A DNA stretch of 64,000 nt, from contig JACYXH010000522.1 in NCBI GenBank assembly GCA_026745465.1, forward strand, positions 3,416,125 through 3,480,124, written 5' to 3'. The notes under the pieces were generated by a model. It searched no databases. It saw only the letters and a program-made list of their open reading frames with translations, and had not been told where the DNA came from. Shown here in pieces: positions 35,394 to 64,000 of the stretch. Each line of letters begins with the position of its first letter. Position 1 is the stretch's first letter. The position numbers and the translations under genes were made by a program. This DNA comes from Lota lota. Lineage: Eukaryota; Chordata; Actinopteri; Gadiformes; Lotidae.

Positions 35394-49655
<14,262 letters not shown>

Positions 49656-52213: not shown

Positions 52214-54866
52214 TCATAAATCGATTAACATCCTAGGGGTGTGCCCTGTGTGGGTGTATCCTATGGGGGCGTGTCCTGTGTTGGCCAATAGGAGGCGGTG
52301 CTCGCTGACTGCCTCCTGATTGACAGCTGGCGTACAGTCTGTTAGGAGAGACACAGAGAGCAGCTCCTCCTCCTCCTCCTCCTGCCCGTCCTCCCCAGGG
52401 AGTTGGTCCAACCAGGAGGGGGCACGGGGGGGGTTCAAACCTGCAGACCGTTCACAAGCATTTCAACAATCAAACACCATCAATAAATATACTATAAACC
52501 ATAAAGATAATTTATTTCCATGATGAAATTTGTCATTACTACCAGCCTAATTCAGTTATATAATTCCATTATTTATGTTAGTTTTGATTGTTCACTATAA
52601 AAATATCTTTAACCTGCTTTTTCCCAGAATCCCGATGGGCTCGCAGCCAGCTGGCCATCCATTGGCTGCTGCTGGTAAGCGTGGCCAAACTGGACGTCAC
52701 CAATCAAGTTTAGGGAGTGGTGTGATCTCAAAATGTGAGATTGGCTTTGGAGGTGGGAAGATTTTACAGAGTGGGCGTGTCCAGGGGGCTGGTAACTGTG
52801 ACAATAGTAGGCAGAGTCTAGGTATTGGGAAGAGTCTGATAAGTGGGAGGAGCTAAGGCAGTCTGCCCCAATCACTGGTCCTGCAGTCTGGAGAAGAGAT
52901 GGCGATTTGTCAATTCATAACAACACTGTCTCATAAATGAAGCATGATGTCATATATGATTATTTTTCATAACATGTTTTGCATTGTTTTCACCTGGGAG
53001 TTCTGGAGTCGGGTCACTTCCTGTCTGCTGAGACACTTCCTGTCTATGTCTTCTCCCCTCCACCTGAAGGACAGACACATTTTACAGGGAATAGAACCCC
53101 TAACCCTGCAGTGTTAGTGCCTTGCTCTACAAAGTGAGCTACACAGGGAATAGAACCCCCAACCCTACTTGATTGTTGTTGGGGATGGGGCGTGGCTTCG
53201 GTCCCTTGCCCCGCCCAGTGGTCCACAGGAATGGCAGGAGACCCCCGGCTGAGGGCTGAGGCTGTTGCTAGAGCGACAGAGGGAGCGGTGGCGGAGGTCT
53301 GTAGAGAGTATGAATGTATTTTATTCTTCAAACAATAATTATTATATTACATTTATATTCATTACAGATTATATTCATATTTAAAGTGAAGGACAACAAA
53401 AATCCATAATTTACATCGAATTATGTTATTATGTGCACTAAGCATCACAAAATGATGTTCCATGAAATCCTCAAGTAATTTTCAGTAAATCGATTTCCTT
53501 CTATTCCTTAAAGCAGATTGAATGGGTGGAGTCTATTTTCCCTGGGGGGGGGGGACTGCCCTACAATCCTGAGTGTTGCCAAGACCAAGTTTATTAGCAG
53601 TGGATATATCCCTCTGTGATACGTTATATTTTATTTTAGGTTTTGAGATCACATTCATTACATATATGATATTGCATATTATTATGTAAAGAAATAAGGG
53701 TATGAAGTAAGAAGTGAGAGGAAAGTTAACACCCTACCAGTGAGGTAGGCAGTCGTCTTGGTAACTGGCAGTGAGCCATCACTAGGGATGGCCAGAAGTT
53801 CCTCCGTTGTCAAAGCCACCTCGTCTCCGTCGGCATGGCAACGCAGAGAGGTGATTGCTGGGAGCGACAGGAAACACAGCTCTGTGTCTGTCAGCAGCTC
53901 TCTAAGGACTATGGGTGAAAAAACGATGTGTATGATCACACATGTTCCAAAATTCGGAACATGTGTGATATTACAAAATGTAGTTTGGTTATGATTGAGT
54001 GATGATTTTTTAATAGAAAATAAAGGAAAATCTGAACTGATTATGATTCTAGCTCTGCACACACCAGGATCATGATTATAAATAGTATATTGATATATAT
54101 ATATATTTCCTCTTTCATTACTTCATATGTGACATTACAATCACACACAGCAGGACACCGGTCTCACCGTCTCTGTTGCGGAGGGTCCCAGGTGGTCTGG
54201 GGCGTCCAGGCTGGGAGGAGGAAGTCCCTGGCGGCAGCAGGTCTAACCGGGGCCCTGTGGAACGTGCCAGGGCCCCGGGGGCCAGACGCCACAGCTCAAA
54301 ATCAGCGATATAGGCGTCCAGCGCTGCAGACGCTGAGGCAAACTCCTGCCGACAAGATCAACCAGACAGTCAATGAACAGTCAATTTATCAACCAGGCTG
54401 TCAAACAACCAGTCGGGGCAAGGTTAGGGCTGGTGTACTGCAAGGTCAGGGTAGGGTAAAGTTAGGGGTTAGGTGGGTTAGTGTTCAGTTAGTTTTGGGG
54501 TAGGGTTTGGTAGGGTAAATGCCAAATCAAACTTGTGCATCCTGCACATATGCAAAGATTCACGTCTAAGTCTAAGACATATTTTCAATGGAGCAGACTG
54601 TGCTTCAGATTTCCGGATTTGCTCGTCGGTTCGTGTACATCTCTGGTTGGAAACGCTATACTGCCCCAGTATGTACACGTTAACTGACGTGAAGTATACG
54701 GTGTGGTGGGCCAGGTGAGGATTAAGTTAGGTCAGGGTAAGTTAAGGCTGTTCACCTGGTCTCCACAGCGGATGGTTTGGTGAGTAGGGGGCAGGTGTCC
54801 GCTGCAGGACATCAACGTGGTGACGGTGGACTCGGGGGAGAGAGGACGCTCTCTGTCCCAGTCCAT
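52214..54866 (-). CDS. LAS2/C18orf54-like protein (seven coding exons, 386 residues)
   Basis: Exons, 5' to 3': 54756-54866, 54168-54345, 53738-53908, 53169-53298, 52994-53063, 52614-52887, 52214-52440. All junctions are GT/AG and all phases agree. The N-terminus MDWDRERPLSPESTVTTLMS leads to FASASAALDAYIADFELW, then LLTDTELCFLSLPAITSL, ALTTEELLAIPSDGSLPVTK, and a Ser-rich half with SLCRSSNSLSPQP, DCLSSSHLSDSSQYLDSAYY and a C-terminal acidic WLDQLPGEDGQEEEEE. The pattern SAS.ALDAYI.DF followed by L(S/T)D.EL.FL..P and LTT.(D/E)LL..P.DGSLP fits my memory of lung adenoma susceptibility protein 2 (LAS2, C18orf54). Its molecular function is poorly known, so none is assigned. The first coding exon has an acceptor one base upstream of its ATG, so a non-coding first exon probably exists to the right. 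Confidence 0.8.
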
Positions 54867-55439
54867 CCTGGAAATCACAGAGGTCAAAGCTCAGCCGCTG
54901 CGCTCACACTATCTCATAACCTGTTTTAACATCTGTATTTTCCATCTTCCATCAACTAAGAGATACTCAATTTTGGCTCGCACATATACTATGTATTTTT
55001 TGAACAATGTTAAATAGTTGCTGCGTTCAGGCTAGGTATGTATATTTATAAATATAATAGTATATAGTTAAGATATACGTTAGTATCCACTACGTAACGT
55101 CACAGCTACATTACAGGATATATGTATAAATATTCATCCATGTATATATTATATATATATTTTTTTTCCTTTTACGTATATCATGTTTTACGTATATCAG
55201 TGAGGAACATTACAGAATACGTAGTGTAAAAACAACAATAGGCTTTAGCACGCTGCTAGCCAACGGTCTACAGATAATTAAACATCGTAACAAGAACAAG
55301 AAGCGGACTTGATAGGAATAGTTTATAGGAAGGCAGTCAAACAAATTAAACTCACCCTGGCTGTGGTCGTAAGAAAATAAACAAACATATAAACAAACCT
55401 CAAAACCTGATTAAGAGCACCTAGAAACCTGTAACAAAT

Positions 55440-55600
55440 TCAAGCCTGCCACACTGGTGACGGAGCTAGTTAAGCTGCGCCCCGATTGGTGCACTGCCGC
55501 CGTGATGAGTTCAGAACAACTGGGACGGTCCAAACAACCAATCATCTGTTCCCGAAATTGTCGCTGCGTTGTTCGTTGTTCGCATTCCGGGCAACTTGAG
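55440..55600 (-). promoter_or_regulatory. Candidate promoter of the LAS2-like gene
   Basis: A GC-richer patch with CCCGATTGGTGCACTGCCGC and CCAACCAATCATC style CCAAT boxes lies 0.6 kb upstream of the first coding exon. It is the only such patch between that exon and the repeats that follow. Inference only. Confidence 0.3.
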
Positions 55601-55839
55601 GAAGAAGTTAAATGTCATCTTTTTCGTTTATTTATAGAGGCGATATAAACACCACAAGGCATTGCTGCCATACATATGTTTGGAGGTCAGTACTAAGAAA
55701 TGAAAAAGGAAAAGGAAATAATAAAAACGAAAATAAATCACACCCGGTGTACAGTACTGTGTCGTGTTGGAACTCTAATATGTAAACAGCAGGACCCAAC
55801 AGCATGCGAAGCGAGAAGGTTGTCACACCAATGCCAAAA

Positions 55840-56920: not shown

Positions 56921-57258
56921 AAATAAATATATACATATTGTAGGAGCATTGTGCTCTTTTTACTATGTCTACTCTGCAAGTACAAACTCCTCTTATAGTT
57001 ACTCCTGAACTTCCTCCAGATACCTTTTCACCTTCACATCTGCCTTCACTTTCACCTCCTCCTTGACCTCCTCCTCTTTCTCTTTGTCCTCCATCTCCTC
57101 TTTATTCTCCTTCAGTACCCCCCTCCTACCATCACCTGCTCCTCTTTGTTCTCTTCCATCTTTTCATTTAGTTCCTCCATCACCTCCTCCCCGTTCACTT
57201 ACTCCTCCTCCTTCACTAACTCCTCCTTGTCTTCCACCCACTCCTTCTCTCCTGCATT

Positions 57259-60200
57259 TCACCACTTCCTCCTCCACTGTTTCATCTCCTCTACTTCCTC
57301 CTCTTCCTCATCATCAAACTCGTGCTCTTCCATCGCATCCTCAAACTCTTCCTCCTCCTCTACCTCCACCTCCTGCTTCCCTCCTGGGTTTCTCCAGCTC
57401 CTCATCCACTCCTTTATCTCCTCCTCTTCCTCGTCCTGTACTTTCTCCACATCCTTCACCTCCGTCTCCTCCTTTTCTGTGTATCTCCAGCTTCTCCTCC
57501 ACTCCTTCAGCTCTTCTTCTTTATCCTCCCCCTTCACCTCCTCCTCCTCTGTCGCCTCCTCTTCCTCATCTTCCTCCTCCTCCTTCACCTCCTCTGGCTC
57601 AACCATCACCTCATCTACCTCCTCCGCCTTTACTTTCTCCTCCTCCTGCTCCACCTTAACCTCATCTACCTTCTCCTTCACCTCTTCCTCCTCATCTGTC
57701 TCCTCCTCTTCATCATCTTCCTCCTTCTCTGCCTCCTCCTCCTTCACCTCCTCTACCTTTCCTGTGTGTCTCCATCTCCTCCACCACTGCATCACCAACT
57801 CATATCTCTCCTTCTCCTTCACCTCATCCCCATCTGTCTCCTCCACTTCATCCTCCTCCTCATTCACCTCCTTCTCCTCCTTAACTTTCTCCTCCTCCTG
57901 CTCAACCTTAACCTCATCTACCTCCTCCTCCTCTACCTTTTCCTTCACCTCTTCTTCCTCATCTGTCTCCTCCTCTTCATCATCCTCAACCTTCACCTCC
58001 TCCTCCTCCTCAACCTTCTCCTTCACCTCTTCCTCCTCATCTGTCTCCTCCTCTTCATCCTCCACCTCCTTCACCTCCTCCTGCTCAACCTTCAGCTCCT
58101 CCTCCTCCTTTATTTCTTCCTCCTCCTCCACCTTAACATAATCTACCTCTTCCTCTTCTACTTTCTCCTTCACCTCTTCCTCCTCATCTGTCTCTTCATC
58201 CTCCTCCTCCTTCACCTTCACCTCCTCCTGCTCAACTTTCACCTCCTCCTCCTCTACCTTCTCTTTCACCTCTTCCTCTTCATCTGTCTCCTCATCTTCA
58301 TTATCCTCCTCCTGCTCAACCTTCAGCTCAACTACCTCTTCTTCCTCTACCTCTACCTTCTCCTTCACCTCTTCCTCCTCATCTGTCTCCTCATCTTCAT
58401 CATCCTCCTCTTTCACCTCCTCCTGCTCAACCTCCTCCTCCACCACCTTCTCCTTCACCTCTTCCTCCTCATCTGTCTCCTGCTCTTCATTATCCTCTTC
58501 CTTCACCTCCTTCTGCTCCACCTTCACCTCCTCCTCATCTGTCTCCTCATCTTCATCATCCTCCACCTTCACCTTCTCTCTTGCGTTTCTCCTGCTCTTT
58601 CTCCACTCCTCCTCTACCTTCTCCTTCACCTCTTCCTCCTCATCTGTCTCCTCCTTATCATTATCCTTCTCCTTCACCTCCTCTTCTGCGTTTCTCCAGC
58701 TCTTTCTCCACTCCTCCTCCTCCTCCTTCACCTCTTCCTCTTCATCTGTCTCCTCCTCCTCATCATCCTCCTCCTTCTCCTCATTTACTGTGTTTTTCCA
58801 GCTCTTTCTCCACTCCTTCACCTCCTCTACCTTCTCCTTCACCTCTTTTTCCTCATCTGTCTCCTCATTATCATCCTCCTCCTTCACCTGCTCTTCTGTG
58901 TTTCTCCAGCTCTTTCTCCACTCCTTCACCTCCTCTACATTCTCTTTTTCCACCTTTGCCTCCTCTACTTTCTCTACCTTCTCCTTCACCTCTTCCTCTT
59001 CATCGGTCTCCTCATCTTCATCATCCTCCTCTTTCACCTCCTCCTGCTCAACCTCCTCCTCCACCACCTTCTCCTTCACCTCCTCCTCCTCATCTGTCTC
59101 CTCCTCTTCATTATCCTCTTCCTTCACCTCCTTCTGCTCCACCTTCACCTCCTCCTCCTCATCTGTCTCCTCATCTTCATCATCCTCCACCTTCACCTCC
59201 TCTCTTGCGTTTCTCCTGCTCTTTCTCCACTCCTCCTCTACCTTCTCCTTCACCTCTTCCTCCTCATCTGTCTCCTCCTTATCATCATCCTCCTCCTTCA
59301 CCTCTTCCTCCTCATCTGTCTCCTCCTTATCATCATCCTCCTCCTTCACCTCCTCTTCTGCATTTCTCCAGCTCTTTCTCCACTCCTCCTCCTCCTTCAC
59401 CTCTTCCTCCTCATTTGTCTCCTCCTCCTCCTTCTCCTTTACTGTGTTTCTCCAGCTCTTTCCCCACTCCTTCACCTCCTCTACCTTCTCCTTCACCTCT
59501 TTTTCCTCATCTGTCTCCTCCTCCTCCTCCTTCACCTGCTCTTCTGTGTTTCTCCAGCTCTTTCTCCACTCCTTCACCTCCTCTACATTCTCCTTTTCCA
59601 CCTTTGCCTCCTCTACTTTCTCTACCTCCTTCACCTCCTCCACCTTTCCTGCATATCTCCAGCTCCTCCACCACTGCTTCACCTCATCTTCTTTATCCTC
59701 CTCCTTCACCTCATCCCCATCTGTCTCCTCCTCTTCATCATCCTCCTCCTTGTCCTTCACCTCCTCTTGCTCAAACTTCACCTCCTCTACTTGCACCTTC
59801 TCTGCTGCGTATCTCCAGCTCCTCCTCCGATCCTTCATTTTCTTCTCTAATTTATCCTCCCCCTCCTCATTTGTTGCTCCCTCTTCATAATTTTCCTCCT
59901 CCTTCACCTCCTCTTCAATCTCTTCCTCCTCATTTTCTTTCACCACATCCTTCTTCTCCTTCACCTCCTCCACTGTCTCCTCCTCCTGTTCCTCCTCAAT
60001 CTCCTCACCCTTCTCTCCTGTGTTTCTCCAATTCCTCCTCCACTCTTTCACCTCCTCCTCCATTGCTTCCTCCTCCATTTCTTTCAGGACCTCCTTCTTC
60101 TCCTTCACCTCCTCTGCTGTCACCTCCTGCTCCTCCTCAATATCCTCATCCTTCTCTCCTGCATTTCTCCAGTTCCTCCTCCACTCTTTCACCTTGTCCA

Positions 60201-63200
60201 CCTTCTCCTCTTCCACATCCTCTTCCTCTTCTTTCTCCACCTCCTTCTTTTCCTTCACCTCCTCCTTCTTTCCTGCGTATCTCCAGCTCCTCCACCACTG
60301 CTTCACCTCTTCCTCTTTATCCTCATTCTCCTCATTCTCCTCTGTCTCCTCCTCCTCCTCCTTCTCCTCAGTCTCCTCCTCCTCCTCCGTCTCCTCTACC
60401 CCCTCCTCTCCTGCGTATCTCCAGCTCTTCCTCCACTCCTTGATGTCTGGAAGGCCATCGTTGGCGGCGACCCTGAGGCCCCACCCCCTGAGGCCGTGGC
60501 CCCTGAGGAGCAGCACCTCTTCCTGTACGGTGTTGTTAGACTGACTCTCCCTGTGGAGCCTCCAGGCACTCCTCCAGCCGGAGTCCACCTCCTCCTCCTC
60601 TGGGCTGTGGAACGCCCGCCAGGAGCTGCTCCTCCACTCCGCATCCAGCTCACGGAACCGCAAACAAAGAACCTTCATGGAACCCTCCTGCCTCTCCTCC
60701 TCCTTCTCTTCAGTCTCCTCCTCTTTTTCAGTCTCCTCCTCCTCTTCTGTCTCCTCTTCTTCTGTCTCTTCTTCTTCTGTCTCCTCCTCTTCTGTCTCCT
60801 CTTCCTCATCCTCCTCCTCTGTCTGTTAACAAAATATTAATGTTTATTATATTAAAACAACATGAATACCTGTTGGAATATATATTAGTAGTATATATTA
60901 GTAATATATATTAGTAGTATTATATAAGTATTCAATATTATTAGCGGTGACTTCGAATCTTCGTTAGAAAGTAATTTAGTCGACTGCTTCTTTAACGTCG
61001 TATCGTCGTGTCGGGGAAATTGCAACAAATTCTTTTTTGGGGGGGGGGGGGGGGGGGGGAGTTATTCTTCTGTATGCAATTTGCTGTTTAATGTTTTGTA
61101 TGTTTTTCATGTTTGTTTTTTTGCTTTCAATAAATGTCCTTATTGTTTGTTTGAGAACCCCTTTGTCTATGCGGATGTTGTCAGGAGCGGTTGTGAATAC
61201 CGTGCGTAATCAGACAGAACAGAGCGCTAAGTCTCCACAGATTTGATTTCATAGATGTATTCTAATAATTATCATATATTAATCTATATTATAGAATATA
61301 AGGCTAATAGAAGCCTATATTTTCTGTCGATTTGAATACAGATGCTGACATGAACAGATGCACATTGTCGTCATAGTGTGCAAAGTTAATTTGTTGGTAG
61401 AGGCGCTCGGCCATTTAGCGGAGGCGCTGAGCTCTCCAATAGACTGATAAACACTGATAAGCTAATTTATTATCTTCAAGCGCTTAAACCACATAGTAAA
61501 TAGTATATTAGTCGTATATATTAGTACTGTATATGAGTAGTATATTAGTCGTATATATTAATACTGTATATGAGTAGTATATATTATTAGTATATATTAG
61601 TACTGTATATGAGTAGTTTATATTAGTAGTATATATTAGTAGTATATATTAGTACTGTATATGAGTAGTACAAATTATTAGTATATATTAGTATTGTATA
61701 TGAGTAGTATATATTAGTACTGTATATGAGTAGTATATATTAGTACTGTATATGAGTAGTATATTAGTAGTATATATTAGTACCGTATATGAGTAGTATA
61801 TTAGTAGTATATATAATTACTGTACCTTGAGGGTCTGAGTCAGAAGTAGGCTGGTAGCCAATCGGCTGTTCTCTAAAGCGTTGGCATGGTGATGCTGGGA
61901 TGCTAATGATGGCCTACACCATCTAGACATACAGACCGACAGACCGATAGACCGACAGACAGACAGACAGACAGACAGACAGATAGGCAGGTAGGCAGGC
62001 AGGCAGACAGTCAGAAAGGGTGATTGATAGAGTGATAGATAGATATTGTGATAGTGAGAGATAGATAAATAGTGATAGTGATAGAGTGACAGATAGATAG
62101 ATAAATAGATAGATAGATAGATAGAATGATAGAATGATAGAATGATATAGTGATATAGTGATATAGTGATATAGTGATATAGTGATAGATAGATACATAG
62201 ATAGAGAGGGTAACACCTGCTCTGTGGGCGGAGCTTCCAGGACAGATAGTTCCAGTTCCTTGGCTCTGCACCCTCGTCGGAAGTAGGTGGAGCTTCTGCT
62301 AGTCGCCAGGCAGAGTTCCATCCGGGGAGGAAGATGTCAGCCATCTTGGTTGTCACGGTGGAGGGATCTGTGTTGTCCGGCGTAACGGTTGCCGACATTC
62401 TCCAGGCCTGCTGCCAGTCGGTACATTCACACTAAAGACCCAAAATATTATTAATATTATACTATAATGATTCAAATTATGTTTATTATTAATCTACAAT
62501 TATTAAAACAATTATGCTAATCTCCTATTAAAATATTTCATATTATTAATATTGTTCATAATACTCATTACAATAATCTACAATGTTGTTATTGTTCCTT
62601 CTACTCATATGACAATTATTTATATTAATATTGTTCACAATACTCATATTAAAACAAGCAATATTATCATTATTGTCTTGGCGGGGACCGCTTCACTCTG
62701 CTGGCCTCTAGAGGGCAGAGGAACCGCTTCACTCTGCCTTCTAAATGCTGGCAGGGCGACCGCTAAATGCATACATCACCACTCCTGCTTTTACCTGAGG
62801 CTGCTGCTATTCTGTCAGCCCTGAAGACAATGCACCTCTCCAGATCTACCACGCTGTTTCGGTGAAGAACATGAAACTACAATCTAAAGTAATGAAAATG
62901 ATGTATATAGAGTGGAGTTGACCTGTGGTTCCAAGGCCAGTAGCTGGGGGGTCTTGTCCTGTGGTTCAGGAGGGGGTCTGCTGGGCCACTCCCTGTCCCA
63001 CCATGGCTTCTGCTGCCTCAGCACAAAGATCATGGTCTTCCAGGTCCCCGCCCACATGGGTAGGGAGAAGCCCCCCACCCGCGGCTGATACCTGCCCAGG
63101 AACTTGCCCTCCGACACCACCTCCCAAGACTGCCCCTCACCCACACTGGGGAGGGCAAGAGGCGCTGGGCTGGGCTTCACCTTAGATAAGACAAGATAAA

Positions 63201-64000
63201 TAAGATGTACTTTATTAATCATAGATGGGAAACTAAGTTGCATCAGGAGAAAGTACAGGACAGTAGTGTAGAAAATACCCATAAACTTACCATGCTAGTA
63301 CATTAGCTGTAGATGCTAACAAAGGTAGGTAAAGCATAATATATTAGTACATAACCTGTAGATTCTTATGAAGCTAAATGTAGGAGCCAGCAGAGAGACA
63401 AAAGGTGCTAGATGCAAAGCGGAGACAACTGGAGCGACTAGAGACAGTTAAAAGGTTAAAGGCTGCTAAGGCACGTCAGCGAGTGTATGATCAGAGTGAG
63501 TGCTCAGATAAAGAAATAAGCAGTCTACTCCATCAAGGTGTCTGTATGAAGGAAAAGGAAGAAGTTAAACATGAAAATAATCTGTTGCAGCACCATTCTT
63601 CACCACAAGACCGGGCACATCCAAAGCAGGATGACAGCACAGCAGCTCTTGTTAGAGGACTTGCAGAGTCCATCAGTGCAAGTCGTCTTCCTATACCTGA
63701 TGCTAGTACATTAGCTGTAGATGCTAACAAAGCTAGTCATTGCAAAACCATGCTAGTACATTAGCTGTAGATGCTAACAAAGCTAGCCATAGACGTATCA
63801 TGCTAGCATATAAGCTGTAGACGCTAAAGAAGCTAGCCGCAGTTGAACAATGCTAGTACAGTAGCTGTAGATAGTAACAACGCTAGCCTTAGCCGTACCC
63901 TGCTAGAACACTAGCTGTAGATGCTAACCAGTTTCCAGGAGTCCGTCCATCCCGTACTGGTCTCCTCCTCCCTGCTCCTGGCTGCTCCTCCTCGGGACCT
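57259..64000 (-). CDS. Unrecognised Glu-rich protein with W-x-x-S-W-R repeats (3' part, five exons seen)
   Basis: Exons, 5' to 3': 63929-64000 (partial), 62923-63180, 62217-62431, 61826-61922, 57259-60822. Junctions are GT/AG with matching phases, giving 1401 visible residues; the start lies off the right edge. Most exons carry a Trp-pair motif: GWTDSWKL, MWAGTWKTM, DWQQAWRM, GWNSAWRLA, NWNYLSWKL, then in the last exon EWRSSSWRAF, GWRSAWRLH and about 18 copies of EWRKSWRNA or QWWRSWRYA. Between them are blocks of about 25-70 residues rich in Glu, Val and Lys such as EETDEEEEVKEKVEEE. No signal peptide, membrane span or known domain is visible. The last exon ends at a TGA that falls exactly where the motif normally has Arg (QWRRKW-stop), and the frame remains repeat-like for 19 codons beyond it. 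Function unknown; a coiled-coil or structural acidic protein is possible. Confidence 0.75.
58285..59630 (-). repeat. 648-bp higher-order tandem duplication inside the last exon
   Basis: The block including VEKVEEAKVEKENVEEVKEW, EEWRKSRRNARE and VVEEEVEQEEVKEEDDEDEE is present twice. Matching landmarks at 58933 and 59581 are 648 bp (216 codons) apart, so the duplication keeps the frame. Confidence 0.85.
60823..61825. other. Intron with G-run and ATTAGTAGTATAT-type tandem repeat
   Basis: A run of about 21 G residues lies at 61039-61059. From about 61495 to 61820, TATATTAGTACTGTATATGA with GTAGTA spacers repeats about ten times. No exon is visible in this interval. Confidence 0.85.
61923..62216. 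repeat. (GATA)/(GACA) microsatellite-filled intron
   Basis: The 294-bp intron between two exons of the W-repeat gene consists almost entirely of ACAG, GATA and GATATAGT repeats. Confidence 0.9.
63400..63700 (+). mobile_element. Fossil fragment of a BEL/Pao-type LTR retroelement (N-terminal region)
   Basis: A plus-strand segment resembles the start of fish BEL/Pao polyproteins in its Arg/Lys/Leu-rich helical stretch and an ESISASRLPIPD motif. No LTR or enzymatic part is present; it is a broken fragment in an intron of the W-repeat gene. Age cannot be judged from one fragment. Confidence 0.55.
63695..63928. repeat. Minisatellite, unit about 60 bp
   Basis: Four copies of CATGCTAGTACATTAGCTGT, AGATGCTAACAAAGCTAG plus a variable 20-bp part. 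A further copy lies alone at 63293-63327, on the other side of the BEL/Pao fragment. The array ends at the splice donor of the exon 63929-64000. Confidence 0.9.

Follow-up and report, generated by a model that had tools for sequence, protein, structure and literature searches.

The DNA analysed here is a stretch of 64,000 nt (the window) from Lota lota as deposited in assembly GCA_026745465.1 (contig JACYXH010000522.1:3,416,125-3,480,124). The neighbouring genes in the window are of vertebrate type and lie on the minus strand. Pfam searches identified an APC-type coiled coil, the N-terminus of a fukutin and a CTLH-domain protein that we take to be WDR91 (Table 1). Past the right edge of the window, at about 79-93 kb in window numbering, lies the C-terminal part of a further gene, which is presumably neogenin/DCC-like. 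Between the WDR91-like and neogenin/DCC-like genes, and likewise on the minus strand, sits a gene whose predicted product carries many closely spaced pairs of Trp residues, and we refer to it as the Trp-pair gene.

Table 1. Features of the Trp-pair gene and of its neighbours, in window numbering.
Feature	Position	Strand	Details
APC-type coiled coil	6.9-7.2 kb	minus	Pfam APC_N_CC, E 2.9e-22
Fukutin, N-terminus	28.9 kb	minus	Pfam FKTN_N, E 1.3e-7
CTLH-domain protein	47 kb	minus	Pfam, E 5e-19
Possible polyadenylation signal AATAAA	57101..57106	minus	starts 155 bases after stop codon start
Stop codon TGA	57259..57261	minus	replaces Arg codon of one more Trp-pair motif
Exon 5	57259..60818	minus	1185 whole codons plus one split with exon 4, then TGA; 42% Glu
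Exon 4, candidate, least certain	61826..61872	minus	47 bases, without motif; bridges frames of exons 3 and 5
Exon 3	62217..62431	minus	WQQAWR, WNSAWR, WNYLSWK; acceptor TTTAG, donor GTGTTA; phase 0 in, 2 out
Exon 2	62923..63180	minus	86 residues, WAGTWK; acceptor CTAAG, donor GTCAAC; phase 0 on both sides
Exon 1, in-window part	63929..64000	minus	donor CTG/GTTAGC; last motif at its end is WTDSWK

The original prediction had placed a split gene encoding more than 1400 residues at the right end of the window. Indeed, five segments with splice-like borders on the minus strand (Table 1; exon 1 in full is 64285-63929) join in one frame. Read from the candidate ATG, this frame runs without interruption for 4437 bases, comprising 1478 codons and a single terminal TGA. 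The predicted length is thus not reached inside the window, which holds 1383 residues, but is exceeded when the rest of exon 1 outside the window is included (1478). GC content was 0.52-0.65 in the exons (with exon 1 represented by its in-window part) against 0.30-0.41 in the introns; exon 2, for example, had 0.65 and the introns on its two sides 0.41 and 0.34. Over positions 57262-60820, the exon-5 frame contained no stops and the other two minus frames contained 109 and 98. The plus-strand frames were nearly open over the same positions as well (1, 3 and 9 stops), so that openness by itself is weak evidence. We consider it very probable that the Trp-pair locus is a coding gene.

Two parts of this gene model are less firmly placed than the rest. 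At the 5' end, exon 1 continues beyond the window, where it carries a second motif (WGESWK at 64090) and reaches the candidate ATG at 64285, 285 bases past the edge. Because this ATG sits after a GT microsatellite and the frame stays open further upstream through the microsatellite, an acceptor site instead of a start near 64285 is also possible. In the middle of the gene, the phases of exons 3 and 5 clash, so that the two cannot be spliced to each other and another exon is needed between them. Exon 4 was first chosen by eye, and candidates were then counted systematically: it is 1 of 31 open, phase-compatible candidates, and its donor (6/9) had the best score, which seven more candidates also reached, six of them with an overlapping donor region. 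None of the 31 combined a donor of at least 7/9 with a good acceptor. The borders of exon 4 are provisional; the choice among the listed candidates alters the protein by at most some tens of residues, and neither the number of motifs nor the comparison of Trp codons described below is affected by it. Two further features were seen around intron 1: a 50-base tandem repeat (63700-63928, 4.6 copies) abuts the exon 1 donor site, and a 126-residue Lys/Arg/Glu-rich open frame without a Pfam match runs antisense over the intron (63384-63764, plus strand).

Exon 5 makes up most of the coding sequence. The second AG of AACAGACAG serves as its acceptor. A splice donor may also lie inside exon 5, which is a third weak point of the gene model. 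The Arg codon that the terminal stop replaces is AGA in 15 of the 17 aligned copies of the motif. Past the stop, at 57000-57258 on the minus strand, repeat-like sequence continues in the unchanged frame (NAGEKEWVEDKEELVKEEE), and because of this, exon 5 was probably once longer.

The encoded protein is strongly acidic, with a net charge of -390 over the 1383 in-window residues. Glu accounts for 523 of all 1478 residues and Gly for 41; in the exon-5 frame, the corresponding values are 42.5% and 1.9%. Copies of the motif read W-x2/3-[S/A/T/N]-W-[R/K], with one copy that has Arg at the place of the small residue. Using the pattern W-x3/4-W-[RK], we counted 22 copies. Exons 1-3 hold 6 of them and exon 5 the other 16, of which 2 lie near the exon start ahead of a tandem array and 14 elsewhere. 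The motif had been expected in four of the five exons of the window, and it was found in exons 1, 2, 3 and 5 and missing from the short exon 4. The expected number of about 20 copies in the last exon proved too high for intact copies (16) and holds when damaged ones are included (19). The damaged copies, which stand outside the 22, are two that read W-R-K-S-R-R and one that is ended by the stop after its second Trp. Within exon 5, the count varied slightly with the pattern: 14 for W..[SAN]W[RK], 15 when 2-3 spacer residues were allowed, and 16 with any residue before the second Trp.

The two Trp residues are four apart in 20 of the 22 motifs and five apart in the other two. Among the 20 four-spaced motifs, the +3 residue is mostly Ser (13; Ala 3, Asn 2, Thr 1, Arg 1) and the +5 residue is always basic (Arg 16, Lys 4), and many exon 5 copies read K-E-W-R-[KR]-S-W-R. 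Motifs contain 44 of the 59 Trp residues, leaving 15 outside, and Trp pairs four apart occurred 21 times in the 1383 residues compared to 2.1 expected. Distances between motif starts in exon 5 range from 20 to 273 residues, the two degenerate copies included. The motif is not confined to the array: the 407 residues outside it (exons 1-4 plus the 115 residues at the start of exon 5, including a short Trp-free Glu/Thr repeat) hold 8 motifs, against a mean of 0.36 after shuffling. None of 100,000 shuffles reached 8 or more, and the maximum was 6. For the in-window part of exons 1-4 (197 residues), the comparison was 5 motifs against 0.21 in shuffles (1/200,000). As a control, the six frames of window positions 1-57000 yielded 10 motifs, no two of them within 300 codons. 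The motif thus occurs as a multivalent array would have it, in many copies (22) and in varied contexts (8 outside the tandem array).

To compare the copies with each other, we aligned 17 exon 5 copies as 14-codon blocks, consisting of 15 of the 16 intact copies and the two degenerate ones; WRSSSWR, with its five-residue spacing, and the truncated last copy were left out. Confined to a single genome, the comparison sets a six-codon core against flanks that are 3 and 5 codons long. Minor bases were found at 2 of 102 Trp positions compared to 110 of 612 other positions. Changes were also counted on neighbour-joining trees, for which either every column or just the flanks of the copies were used. 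The 6 Trp sites required 1 change, the lowest value for any of 91 codon pairs, compared to 67 or 72 changes at the 36 other sites. The core pN/pS was 0.33 (bootstrap 0.21-0.53; 0.32 without the first copy) and that of the flanks 1.31 (0.95-2.42). These intervals are separate and the core was below the flanks in 2000 of 2000 resamplings, a certainty that the bootstrap overstates because tandem copies share history and are not independent. The whole 14-codon block had a pN/pS of 0.80, indicating that the block overall is under little purifying selection.

Since two out of nine possible point mutations in TGG create a stop codon, part of the Trp constancy is nonsense avoidance. Homogenisation of whole units fails to explain the constancy, as these copies differ freely from each other in their flanks. 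Single sites are expendable, given that the second Trp is gone from two copies and the last copy meets the stop. All 33 of the exon 5 self-alignments longer than 150 bases were in phase, and the lengths of their gaps were divisible by 3 in 89 of 171 cases only. The original prediction combined selection on the motif with the lack of a recognised family. The first part is supported within one genome by nearly unchanged Trp codons next to freely varying ones and by the presence of the motif outside the array, and we regard it as likely that the Trp pairs are under selection. The second part stood within the Pfam and PDB sequences, where matches were at chance level only.

Pfam returned no match for exons 2, 3 and 5 or for the last part of exon 1. 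With exon 1 extended to the candidate ATG, there was one sub-threshold match (PRIMA1, E 0.077) that we take as chance. Against PDB sequences, exons 2 and 3 together had one match (E 0.73) and exon 1 had two (E 0.44), which we also take as chance, and a profile of the repeat had none. Exon 2 had no match in viral and prokaryotic collections, which might include contaminating fish DNA. Such a protein was not described in the abstracts that a literature search returned, a coverage that leaves out most subscription journals, and we expect an orthologue to be listed in databases as 'uncharacterized'. Within the host assembly (575 Mb, 867 contigs), exon 2, exon 3, the start of exon 5 and the repeat unit matched this locus only, among the best candidates scored and at cut-offs of 10, 1, 1 and 0.001, respectively. 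Full-length exon 1 gave 102 weak matches elsewhere (best E 0.0026). We ascribe these to its proline-rich stretch, because exon 1 without that stretch matched this locus only.

Together, these data lead us to propose, with moderate confidence, that the Trp-pair gene may encode an acidic, probably disordered, single-copy fish protein that serves as a multivalent docking tether or scaffold. Each motif would fold into a short helix upon binding, with both Trp residues on one face and Arg or Lys beside them, and would dock in one kind of pocket on a putative partner. A short amphipathic helix of this kind fits the motif because the pair is four residues apart, with a small residue before and a basic residue after the second Trp. 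The linkers would act as spacers that separate the sites and maintain their solubility, and a disordered spacer fits their Glu/Lys/Val-rich composition and the net charge of -390. Internal duplication in exon 5 would have multiplied about eight ancestral sites, raising the valency of the tether or scaffold. More tentatively, the gene could represent a new fish scaffold family with the linear motif W-x-x-[S/A/T]-W-[R/K], in which tandem duplication in the last exon took the number of sites in this species from about eight to 22, a possibility that we judge to be somewhat on the doubtful side.

If the motif is a docking site, the protein would provide a natural valency series, with more than 20 of the same sites set in acidic spacers and a copy number that can expand. 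It would also provide a test case for the evolution of multivalent binding and a new motif to seek in other proteins. If the family reading is true, related fish should carry differing numbers of sites for one partner. More generally, a giant low-complexity exon of the kind that is usually masked would be able to contain residues under measurable constraint.

The protein could also be real and bind mainly to itself. In that case, the Trp/Arg pairs would be stickers that bind each other and the acidic linkers instead of a specific partner, which would make the protein self-associating or condensate-forming. The concentration of Trp in motifs within so highly charged a chain and the wide variation of inter-motif distances both agree with this. 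Stickers, however, need neither a fixed spacing nor a small +3 residue, yet 20 of 22 motifs keep a distance of four and 13 of 20 have Ser at +3, and we find this explanation unlikely. It is improbable that exon 5 is a coding minisatellite without selected function, or part of a decaying gene, in which slippage spread the repeat and Trp was kept mostly since many transitions in its codon make stops. The exon is a purine-rich tandem array, its stop cuts a motif with repeat-like sequence behind it, and the whole-block pN/pS is that of a sequence under little constraint (0.80); this nevertheless leaves unexplained why 8 motifs occur outside the array and why pN/pS is four times higher in the flanks than in the core, as well as the single minus frame that is open across exon 5 when the others have 98 and 109 stops.

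We think it similarly improbable that the motifs form short amphipathic helices of basic-aromatic character for binding to membranes or to calmodulin-like proteins. The K-E-W-R-[KR]-S-W-R copies would suit this role, as they could place two Trp on one helical face together with up to four basic residues, but the copies WTDSWK, WQQAWR and WNSAWR from the unique exons are hardly basic and the Trp pair is still present in them. Finally, it is very improbable that there is no gene and that a CT/GA-rich repeat acquired its open frames and splice sites by chance. In favour of this reading, hundreds of codons are open on the plus strand of the stretch as well, and exon 4 and the start of exon 1 are uncertain; against it, the motifs cluster in four separate exons, GC steps at the exon borders and the repeats are in phase in 33 of 33 cases.

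A multivalent docking scaffold of the proposed kind would share traits with several known systems, in gene structure with the RPGR ORF15 exon and in mode of action with GW182 and GARP. The ORF15 exon of RPGR encodes a Glu-rich (Glu-Gly-rich) tail, in which we know of no Trp pairs. The tail of the Trp-pair protein differs from it in being composed of Glu, Lys and Val with little Gly (41/1478), and in having Trp pairs. The likeness lies in the exon itself, as both the Trp-pair gene and RPGR ORF15, as outlined in PMC9897430 and PMC8856954, have a repetitive, purine-rich terminal exon. Unlike in RPGR, no RCC1 propeller was found in our gene by Pfam in exons 2, 3 and 5 and exon 1, and upstream exons are possible. 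GARP, which is rich in Glu, docks onto other proteins by means of a few short repeats that contain Trp and are Pro-rich. The Trp-pair protein resembles CNGB1/GARP in being Glu-rich with short Trp-containing repeats and differs in that the repeat is W-x-x-S-W-R rather than Pro-rich. GARP occurs both as part of CNGB1 and as free GARP2 (PMC12783967, PMC5309851). In contrast to CNGB1, the exons searched gave no Pfam match to a channel or cyclic-nucleotide-binding domain.

GW182/TNRC6 proteins carry many Trp motifs in a disordered chain with linkers of free length, and their partner has pockets for Trp; the motif is a single Trp beside Gly, Ser or Thr. The many Trp motifs, the probably disordered chain and the varying linkers of the Trp-pair protein are alike. 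Its Trp residues, in contrast, come in pairs, which in exon 5 stand mostly beside Glu and Arg, and the exons searched had no Pfam match to the GW182 middle domain, RRM or UBA. The actin-binding repeats of nebulin and Xin are short motifs with fixed hydrophobic residues, present in many copies per chain. The presence of many short repeated motifs is what the Trp-pair protein has in common with them; motif and spacing differ, and Pfam gave no match to them in the exons searched.

The surroundings of the gene contained several other open frames. Frames that look coding lie between the Trp-pair gene and WDR91 (52217-55614, minus strand) and are possibly a separate gene. They may alternatively be extra exons of the Trp-pair gene; their Pfam matches were sub-threshold or none, and one frame that was compared with PDB sequences had no match. 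In human, STRA8 is a neighbour of WDR91. We considered this identity for the Trp-pair gene and dropped it because, to our knowledge, STRA8 has no motif of the Trp-pair kind. On the minus strand at 1417-2280, an open frame of 287 residues reads as a transposase in one frame, and at 42932-43820, also on the minus strand, a transposase-like reading is spread over several frames; we take both to be of Tc1/mariner type. Upstream of the Trp-pair gene, at window positions of about 72446-72787 on the minus strand, lies a zinc-finger-like open frame that presumably encodes a transposon-derived zinc-finger protein.
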